Part shown: positions 31,396-35,081 of the stretch, one piece after another
How the letters are laid out: the number at the start of each line of letters is the position of its first letter
Numbering within the stretch: the stretch's first letter is position 1
NCBI GenBank assembly: GCA_001785985.1
Contig: MFVE01000006.1
Span: 33,049-79,444 of the forward strand
Direction of reading: 5' to 3'
Length of the DNA: 46,396 nt
Origin: Candidatus Nomurabacteria bacterium RIFCSPLOWO2_01_FULL_42_17
Lineage (GTDB): Bacteria > Patescibacteriota > Minisyncoccia > Phycocordibacterales > UBA9973
Program-made: the position numbers and the translations under genes
Notes under the pieces: generated by a model
The model's input: the letters and a program-made list of their open reading frames with translations, nothing else
What the model was told of the DNA's origin: nothing
Database searches by the model: none

Positions 31396-31650
31396 ATGAA
31401 AAGCTACTCATTTCGCACAATAATTGAAAAGGATGGCAAGCAATATCATGGTTTTGTGCCAGCTCTTTTGGGTGTTCACACCTATGGTAAAACTATAGAA
31501 GAAACTAAAAAGAACTTGAATGAGGCAATTGAAGGATATCTGATTTCTTGCGCAAAACATGGAGATAAAATTCCAAGTGATGATGGACTTCAATCTATAG
31601 AAACAGTTTCTATTCCAATTTTTCCAGTGAGCAAGAGAGTGTATGCCTAA
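31396..31650 (+). CDS. hicB: HicB-family antitoxin
   Basis: YHGFVPALLGVHTYGKTIEETKKNLNEAIEGYL; overlaps hicA by 8 nt. Confidence 0.85.
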   Translation: MKSYSFRTIIEKDGKQYHGFVPALLGVHTYGKTIEETKKNLNEAIEGYLISCAKHGDKIPSDDGLQSIETVSIPIFPVSKRVYA

Positions 31651-31879
31651 GTTGCCAAATGTAAAAGGTAAAACACTTTTAAAGATTCTTGAAAAAGAAG
31701 GATATCTATTAGATCACATTCAAGGCAGTCATCATATACTTCGACGTCAGGATGGGAAGAAAACTACTATCCCAATTCATGGAAGTAAAGATATGCCAAA
31801 AGGAACACTTCTCGGAATTTTGACTGATTTAGATATTTCAAAGGATGAATTTTTTTTGTTGTTAAAAAAGAAGAAGTAA
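31643..31879 (+). CDS. hicA: HicA-family toxin (mRNA interferase)
   Basis: KTLLKILEKEGYLLDHIQGSHHILRRQDGKKTTIPIHGSKDMPKGTLLGIL. Confidence 0.92.
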   Translation: MPKLPNVKGKTLLKILEKEGYLLDHIQGSHHILRRQDGKKTTIPIHGSKDMPKGTLLGILTDLDISKDEFFLLLKKKK

Positions 31880-32940: not shown

Positions 32941-33801
32941 TTATGCCAGTCTAATTTCTCCGAGCTCTTCTTTTATCAGTCCTTTTATTTCCATCACAGA
33001 AAGTATCGCGTTCGCTGTCGGTATCGGCAGTTTGATCGCGCGAATTAATTCATCGCGAGCGATAGGTTCGCGCAACATTCCTGCAACTTTCTTTTCTTCA
33101 GGCGATAAATCTTCAAAAAGCCTTTTTTGTTTCTCTTCATCTTTTGGTAATTCAAAGCCCAGCGCTTCTAACACATCTTCAGTGCAAGTGACAGGTGTGG
33201 CGCCTTGATGCAACAATCTGTTTGTGCCTTTTGAGTTCGAAGAAAAAACCGATCCGGGTACCACGAGCAAGTCGCGATTGTATTCTGTCGTTAATCGCGC
33301 AGTGATCAGGGTACCAGATCTTTCTTCTGCTTCTATTATGAGTGTGGCCTTGGAAATCCCTGCCATCAGTCTGTTGCGCATCGGGAAGCTCCATTGTGTG
33401 GCTTTGAAATCAGGCTCGAATTCTGAAATTAAACATCCGCCTTTTCCAACTACTTCATTTATCAGTCGCACATTTGATTTCGGATACATTGCTTCATCCG
33501 AAAGTCCAGAGCCCGGAAAAACTACAGTCTTGAGCCCCACTTGCATAGCTTTTTTGTGGGCGATGGTGTCTATGCCCATAGCAAAACCGGAAACTATCAC
33601 TATCGGATAGCCTTTCAATCCAGAAATTATTTTTTCGCATATTTCCCGTCCGTAAGAAGTGAATTTACGAGAACCAACAACACAAAGATATATCAGATCC
33701 TCCGGCGGTAATTCTCCGATGATCCAGAGATTTTCTGGAGGCTGAGGGATTTCCAAAAGCGCCTTTGGAAATTTATTTTTTGGCAGTTTTTTAATTTCCA
33801 T
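32941..33801 (-). CDS. dprA: DNA processing protein DprA
   Basis: VVGSRKFTSYGREICEKIISGL; VSGFAMGIDTIAHKKAM; FPMRNRLMAGIS; EAEERSGTLITARL. Confidence 0.95.
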   Translation of the reverse strand: MEIKKLPKNKFPKALLEIPQPPENLWIIGELPPEDLIYLCVVGSRKFTSYGREICEKIISGLKGYPIVIVSGFAMGIDTIAHKKAMQVGLKTVVFPGSGLSDEAMYPKSNVRLINEVVGKGGCLISEFEPDFKATQWSFPMRNRLMAGISKATLIIEAEERSGTLITARLTTEYNRDLLVVPGSVFSSNSKGTNRLLHQGATPVTCTEDVLEALGFELPKDEEKQKRLFEDLSPEEKKVAGMLREPIARDELIRAIKLPIPTANAILSVMEIKGLIKEELGEIRLA

Positions 33802-33815
33802 GTTATGATTATATC
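33802..33815. promoter_or_regulatory. Overlapping divergent -10 boxes for dprA and serS
   Basis: + strand TATGAT 33804-33809 (6 nt from the serS ATG); - strand TATAAT 33813-33808 (6 nt from the dprA ATG). Confidence 0.75.
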
Positions 33816-35081
33816 ATGCTAGACATAAAATTCATTCGTGACAACAAAGATGTTGTCCAAGCCGGAGCTCAAAAAAAGAGGGTAAAAGTGGACATCGATG
33901 CGCTCATCACGCTCGACGACGAGCGTCTAAAAGAACTCAAGGAGATCGAAGATCTGCGAGCAGAAATCAATCGAGTTTCCAACGATATCCCTCGCTCTCC
34001 GGATTCGGGCCTAAAAATACAGCTGATCGAAGAGATGCGCATTGTGAAGGAAGAAATCAAAGCTAAAGAAGAAAAATTAAAAAAAACAGTGGAAGAATGG
34101 CAGAAAATAATGCTGCAAGTGCCAAATGTTCCAGACATGACGGTGCCCGAAGGTGCGGGAGAAGAAGATAATAAAGAAGTTTTGACCTGGGGCGACAAGC
34201 CAAAGTTTGATTTTACTCCGAAGGACCATGTGGAGCTGATGACTGAGCTCGATATGGTGGATTTTGAGAGGGGTGTAAAAGTCCACGGCTTTCGCGGATA
34301 TTTTTTGCAAAACGATGGGGCCGAGCTGGCCTGGGCGATCTGGAATTACGCTCGCAAGTTTTTCGGAGAAAAGAAATTCAAGAATTTTATCGCTCCAGCC
34401 ATTGTCCGCAAGCAACATTTGTATGGCACTGGACATCTGCCTGGTGGAGCGGAAGATATTTTCCAGACACAAGACGGAGATTATCTTTCCGGCACGGCGG
34501 AAGTACCGATGATGGGTTATCACAGCAATGAGATTATGGAAAAAGAAGAATTGCCAAAGCGTTATCTGGCATTTTCTCCATGCTACAGGAGGGAAGCCGG
34601 CGCGCATTCCAAAGATACCAAAGGAATTATTCGCGTGCACGAATTTTACAAACTAGAACAGCTCATTCTTTGCGAGGCTAGCCATGAGGAATCCGTAAAA
34701 TATCACGAGGAGATCAATAAAAATTTTGAAGAATTTTTGGAATCCCTAAATATTCCGTATCGCCGGTTAGAGATCTGCGCAGGAGATCTAAAGTCTGCTC
34801 ATGTAAAAAGTTACGATACAGAGGCTTGGATTCCATCGCAGGGTCAATATCGAGAGCTTTCCAGCGCGTCATACTATCACGATTTTCAAACTAGAAGATT
34901 TAATATTCGTTATAAAGACAAAGACGGGAAATATCGTTTCGTGCATTCGCTAAATAGTACAGCGGTCGCCACTCCGAGGATCCTTGTAGCTATCGTAGAA
35001 AATTATCAACAAGCTGATGGCACAGTCAAAATTCCAGAAGTTTTGCGAGAATATATGGGCGGCAGGGAATTTATAAAATAG
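33816..35081 (+). CDS. serS: Serine--tRNA ligase
   Basis: MLDIKFIRDNKDVVQ; GTAEVPMMGYHSNEI; CYRREAGAHSKDTKGIIRVHEFYKLEQ. Confidence 0.97.
   Translation: MLDIKFIRDNKDVVQAGAQKKRVKVDIDALITLDDERLKELKEIEDLRAEINRVSNDIPRSPDSGLKIQLIEEMRIVKEEIKAKEEKLKKTVEEWQKIMLQVPNVPDMTVPEGAGEEDNKEVLTWGDKPKFDFTPKDHVELMTELDMVDFERGVKVHGFRGYFLQNDGAELAWAIWNYARKFFGEKKFKNFIAPAIVRKQHLYGTGHLPGGAEDIFQTQDGDYLSGTAEVPMMGYHSNEIMEKEELPKRYLAFSPCYRREAGAHSKDTKGIIRVHEFYKLEQLILCEASHEESVKYHEEINKNFEEFLESLNIPYRRLEICAGDLKSAHVKSYDTEAWIPSQGQYRELSSASYYHDFQTRRFNIRYKDKDGKYRFVHSLNSTAVATPRILVAIVENYQQADGTVKIPEVLREYMGGREFIK

Follow-up and report, generated by a model that had tools for sequence, protein, structure and literature searches.

A single bidirectional promoter candidate for dprA and serS

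In the window, that is, the whole stretch of 46,396 nucleotides analyzed here, dprA and serS diverge from a single 20-bp near-palindrome with near-perfect dyad symmetry, CATGTTATGATTATATCATG (33799-33818), which holds both start codons and both extended -10 elements and recurs in the genus as CATGNTANNATNNTANCATG. This element is very probably a bidirectional core promoter that yields two leaderless mRNAs, an economical design of a streamlined genome. The host genome comprises 670 kb in 9 contigs.

The reverse-strand gene dprA (32941-33801) encodes DNA-processing protein A (286 aa; Pfam DNA_processg_A, 6.5e-64; DprA_WH, 7.5e-7), and the forward-strand gene serS (33816-35081) encodes seryl-tRNA synthetase (421 aa; Pfam tRNA-synt_2b, 7.6e-34; Seryl_tRNA_N, 3.3e-22). 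Between the dprA start codon, which appears as CAT at 33799-33801, and the serS ATG at 33816 lies an intergenic spacer of only 14 bp, gttatgattatatc (33802-33815). The forward-strand -10 box of serS, TATGAT (33804-33809), is one base off the consensus, and that of dprA on the reverse strand is TATAAT (33808-33813); each ends 6 nt before its own ATG, and the two boxes share positions 33808-33809. An earlier note on this DNA had described these starts, the spacer and both boxes, and its coordinates and letters were exact to the base.

What the earlier note overlooked is that both boxes are extended -10s with TGn directly upstream, and that the T of each TG sits in the start codon of the opposite gene. 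The TG of serS (TGtTATGAT) occupies 33801-33802 on the forward strand, its T pairing with the first base of the dprA start codon; the TG of dprA (TGaTATAAT) occupies 33815-33816 on the reverse strand, its T pairing with the A of the serS ATG. In CATGnTAnnATnnTAnCATG, the spacer holds two TGn-TATAAT-N6-ATG promoters face to face, and 14 bp is the shortest workable length, with the opposite start codon supplying the -15 T of each promoter. Extended -10 promoters (TGnTATAAT) occur in E. coli and Gram-positives, where a TG placed one base ahead of the -10 makes up for the lack of a -35; unlike in those promoters, the T is supplied here by the opposite gene.

We propose that sigma would read TGn-TATRAT on each strand and that the polymerase would start 7 nt downstream, on the A of the ATG, giving a leaderless message that the ribosome is presumed to translate directly. 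Only one polymerase, in one orientation or the other, would be bound at any moment. Each gene needs its own box, which would keep the layout in place, and competition between the two directions would be a physical consequence, probably weak at ordinary promoter strength.

Elsewhere in the window, two small overlapping forward-strand ORFs (31396-31879) resemble a HicB-HicA toxin-antitoxin system in the order hicB-hicA, judging from sequence only.

Leaderless promoters in the host genome and genus

To place these boxes in their genomic setting, TATAAT-like boxes with at most one mismatch were counted by their offset from the start codon in a 188-kb sample of the host genome containing 170 ORFs. 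The box ended exactly 6 nt before the start in 22 ORFs, and in 0-7 at any other offset. Among the 22 ORFs, T was present at -15 in 19 and G at -14 in 17, and the leaderless promoter consensus of the host genome is TGn-TATAAT-N6-ATG. An 800-kb sample from 28 congeners gave the same preferred offset (106 of 747 ORFs, 62 of them with TG, with 2-38 at other offsets). When counted over 147 genomes of the family, TGNTATAATN6ATG was found 7-47 times per genome in the host genus versus 0-3 times for the backward control.

Leaderless -10-motif genes are recognized by a -10 box that ends 6-7 nt ahead of the start codon and is enriched genome-wide, and this enrichment is present here. The proposal that dprA and serS are leaderless is strongly supported by these genome-wide and genus-wide box positions, with the transcription start sites (TSSs) being predicted. 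Promoters with a -10 motif next to the ORF (TANNNT about 6-7 nt before ATG, usually without a -35) have been reported in Deinococcus-Thermus and Actinobacteria (PMC12340547, PMC3160421, PMC3898074). The dprA and serS promoters resemble them in the distance of about 6-7 nt between -10 box and start codon, but differ in their strong TGn extension, their occurrence in Patescibacteria and their face-to-face arrangement. In the literature searched, we found nothing direct on leaderless transcription or TSS maps in Patescibacteria.

Candidate -35 elements

The presence of TGn in an extended -10 makes a -35 dispensable. The earlier note had pointed out TTGGCA (33780-33785, forward strand), a candidate -35 of serS. 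Classical -35/-10 promoters place the -35 hexamer at 16-18 bp, and the position of TTGGCA 18 bp upstream of the serS -10 is confirmed; its role appears weak, as the hexamer falls within dprA codons Leu6-Pro7-Lys8, which largely explain it, and TTGG[CT]A is present also where the spacer length would put it out of register. Over the same residues, TTGG[ACT]A was found in 7 of 7 loci with a 14-bp spacer versus 18 of 27 relatives with other spacers (p = 0.15), and exact TTGGCA in 4 of 7 versus 3 of 27 (p = 0.02 in a post hoc comparison). A conserved -35 was not favored, TTGGCA being mostly accounted for by the Leu-Pro-Lys codons of dprA; a helping role for serS is possible. For dprA, a search inside serS gave no -35 candidate, with at least 3 mismatches throughout.

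The nested arrangement recurs at unrelated gene pairs

We next consider how widely the nested 14-bp arrangement occurs. The consensus CATGNTANNATNNTANCATG was searched in 147 family genomes, 80 of the host genus and 67 of other genera. As a result, 38 sites were identified in 33 of the 80 genus genomes, although they cannot be counted as independent where the genomes are related; no site was present in the 67 genomes from other genera, and the backward control gave none in all 147. At 36 of the 38 sites, the two start codons open divergent ORFs, each at least 111 aa long; these represent seven unrelated gene pairs, in which proteins outside the Pfam searches were named from their sequence. The most frequent pair was superoxide dismutase (SOD) with a membrane protein of the metallo-beta-lactamase fold (MBL), with 19 sites and 2 more where the reading frame on the SOD side has no start at the site. 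This was followed by dprA/serS (7 sites), a PfkB kinase with a lamin-tail-domain (LTD) protein (5), GAPDH with a PHP-domain polymerase (2), and single sites at pterin dehydratase/PRPP synthetase-like, TyrS/penicillin-binding protein and HIT/RecJ. Box-like hexamers are common at 40% GC, which would speak for chance juxtaposition in AT-rich DNA; with 38 real sites against 0 backward controls in 147 genomes, this explanation is extremely improbable.

The divergent SOD/MBL pair (L296-L325) had a modal spacer of 14 bp (11 of 27), and its nested boxes stay beside the MBL start where the SOD start has shifted away. In a selection of genomes from elsewhere in the order, the nested pattern was rare, with about a dozen sites being true pairs; one true nested pair outside the family is again dprA/serS (L209). 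An unbiased 800-kb sample of the genus contained no 14-bp pair among 68 divergent gene pairs, consistent with approximately 0.5 per genome. In a sister genus (g24; 24 genomes, family f1), leaderless TGnTATAAT-N6-ATG promoters were as numerous as in the host genus (g1), and nested pairs were absent. Because g24 has leaderless promoters without it, the nested pattern is not an inevitable outcome of leaderless starts.

The earlier note had linked competence to tRNA charging through a mutually exclusive promoter. One could accordingly imagine a dedicated switch, in which exclusivity was selected so that transcription of dprA and serS trades off. The two genes are linked in 69 of 70 loci, and three geometry classes of close -10 pairs, described below, all keep the promoters sterically exclusive, which speaks for such a switch. 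However, the same layout is also found at SOD/MBL, PfkB/LTD, GAPDH/PHP-polymerase, RecJ/HIT and other pairs, spacer classes turn over fast (6 changes among the 7 rows of the 14-bp class), and in E. coli basal firing from bidirectional promoters was too low for competition (PMC12825309). We therefore regard a dedicated switch as unlikely. Beyond linkage, a regulatory connection between competence and tRNA charging is unsupported, with seven unrelated gene pairs sharing the layout, and this sharing favors a general compact-promoter design over a dprA-serS switch. In Saccharibacteria, com genes including dprA made no significant contribution to growth in co-culture (PMC10633639). A broader form of the idea, that the 20-bp promoter evolved repeatedly at seven or more unrelated pairs and was selected as an obligatory one-at-a-time expression device, not as a by-product of compaction, is doubtful.

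Conservation and geometry of the dprA/serS promoters

The expectation that dprA and serS would stay linked in relatives was borne out: they are divergent neighbors in 69 of 70 genus loci, the sole exception being L024, where the divergent neighbor is topA. Across several Parcubacteria lineages, they were divergent in 79 of 79 named loci with both genes, with gaps of up to 2.1 kb in some. The spacer and the distance between the starts did not hold in the same way, and strict conservation of the 14-bp spacer was rejected, since its length varies from 14 to 246 bp over the 69 loci. Spacers fall into classes of 14 bp (7 loci) and 23-25 bp (10 loci), followed mostly by 36-41 bp and then by lengths up to 246 bp. 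On the dprA tree, the spacer classes are scattered; the 14-bp class needs 6 changes for 7 rows, near the shuffled mean of 6.8, which leaves a single ancestral 14-bp class unsupported. At least two of the changes are forced by supported branches, and recombination may add to the scatter.

Despite this turnover in length, the two -10s mostly stay close together. In all 7 loci of the 14-bp class, both boxes lie 6 nt from their own ATG, the 2-bp box overlap is the same, and the first spacer base G and the last spacer base C (33815) are kept. The serS -10 lies at 6 nt in 41 of 69 relatives and at 7 nt in 16. These observations bear on the view that only one box is a promoter, the other being a by-product of -10 symmetry whose gene is transcribed from inside its neighbor. 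In its favor, the near self-complementarity of TATAAT readily gives rise to a reverse -10, and only the serS box has a TTGGCA 18 bp upstream. Against it, both boxes stay 6-8 nt from their own ATG in most relatives, the dprA box remains beside serS even with the dprA start 100-200 bp away, and the G and C adjoining the two start codons are kept in 7 of 7; we consider a single promoter quite improbable.

The boxes at dprA/serS adopt mostly three geometries: a 2-bp tail-to-tail overlap, which is the 14-bp class; a 2-bp head-to-head overlap, which is the 23-bp class (AGTATAnAnT); and a separation of about 12 bp. Exactly 12 bp between the boxes was found in 35 of the 52 remaining loci, with several more at 11 bp, compared with about 1.2 in shuffles. 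As a general module, the 12-bp pattern was rejected, as it is mostly limited to dprA/serS. Where the spacer is long, the additional sequence often separates one promoter from its gene, leaving the core intact while dprA or serS gains a leader, and close -10 pairs persist even with a leader of up to approximately 200 bp. The near-perfect dyad symmetry might also be expected of an operator for a dimeric regulator in place of a promoter pair. However, the half-site TGnTATAAT also stands alone in front of single leaderless genes and keeps a fixed distance from each start codon, and the dyads differ among the three geometry classes, which makes an operator highly unlikely.

Comparison with known bidirectional promoters

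A pair of face-to-face promoters is the preferred reading. Bidirectional promoters described by Warman, Grainger and co-workers in bacteria and archaea have divergent TSSs 7-25 bp apart, with preferred distances of 18, 10 and 23 bp, of which 18 is favored; their -10 elements share bases, and polymerases cannot bind in both directions together (PMC12825309, PMC10268837). The dprA/serS promoters are similar in that -10s on opposite strands share bases. The earlier proposal that both promoters cannot be occupied together would follow from TSSs predicted 15 bp apart combined with that work (PMC12825309), and close -10 pairs are kept in most of the genus. Unlike the preference of Warman et al., the predicted TSS distance is 15 bp in the 14-bp class or 24 bp in the 23-bp class, departing from the 18/10/23-bp spacing, which is a stated preference of bidirectional promoters and not a strict criterion of the class. 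A second difference is that both RNAs are predicted to be leaderless, with start codons doubling as promoter sequence. When TG was required on both sides, the 18-bp geometry had no match in the genus, and without TG it gave 4 real pairs among 20 inspected sites; the E. coli-type 18-bp geometry was rejected as a general rule, being rare in the genus.

From its sequence features, the dprA/serS case would join two established classes, bidirectional and leaderless promoters, in one genus of Patescibacteria. Such a recurrent, sequence-defined promoter, with an extended -10, a leaderless start and no room for a ribosome-binding site, provides a direct handle on transcription and translation start in reduced genomes. 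The fusion of start codon and promoter constrains the coding sequence in a way open to small reporter assays, and the presence of three geometries at a single conserved pair of genes offers a natural experiment on how polymerases compete at divergent promoters.

Spacer elements and gene lineages

The long dprA-serS spacers showed no Rfam match within them, the only match being a distant tRNA. Several of them (L006, L016, L021, L022, L031-L033, L038, L040, L042, L050, L054, L056, L057 and L071) carry a hairpin-like element of 90-200 bp. Its arms differ between genomes and are apparently complementary, and its loop sequences recur in at least three types, one of which is present in 39 of 80 congeners, with as many as 11 or more copies in a genome, and absent (0 copies) from the host genome. 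The element may represent a repeat of the genus, either mobile or structured.

Two lineages of each gene were also observed when L051-L071 were compared with L002-L050. The serS products, of about 421 and 437 aa, are 42-53% identical between lineages, and the dprA products share about 58-64% versus 70-88% identity with the host dprA. The serS and dprA lineages are found in various pairings at this divergent locus, which suggests that gene replacement or recombination may have taken place at the junction.
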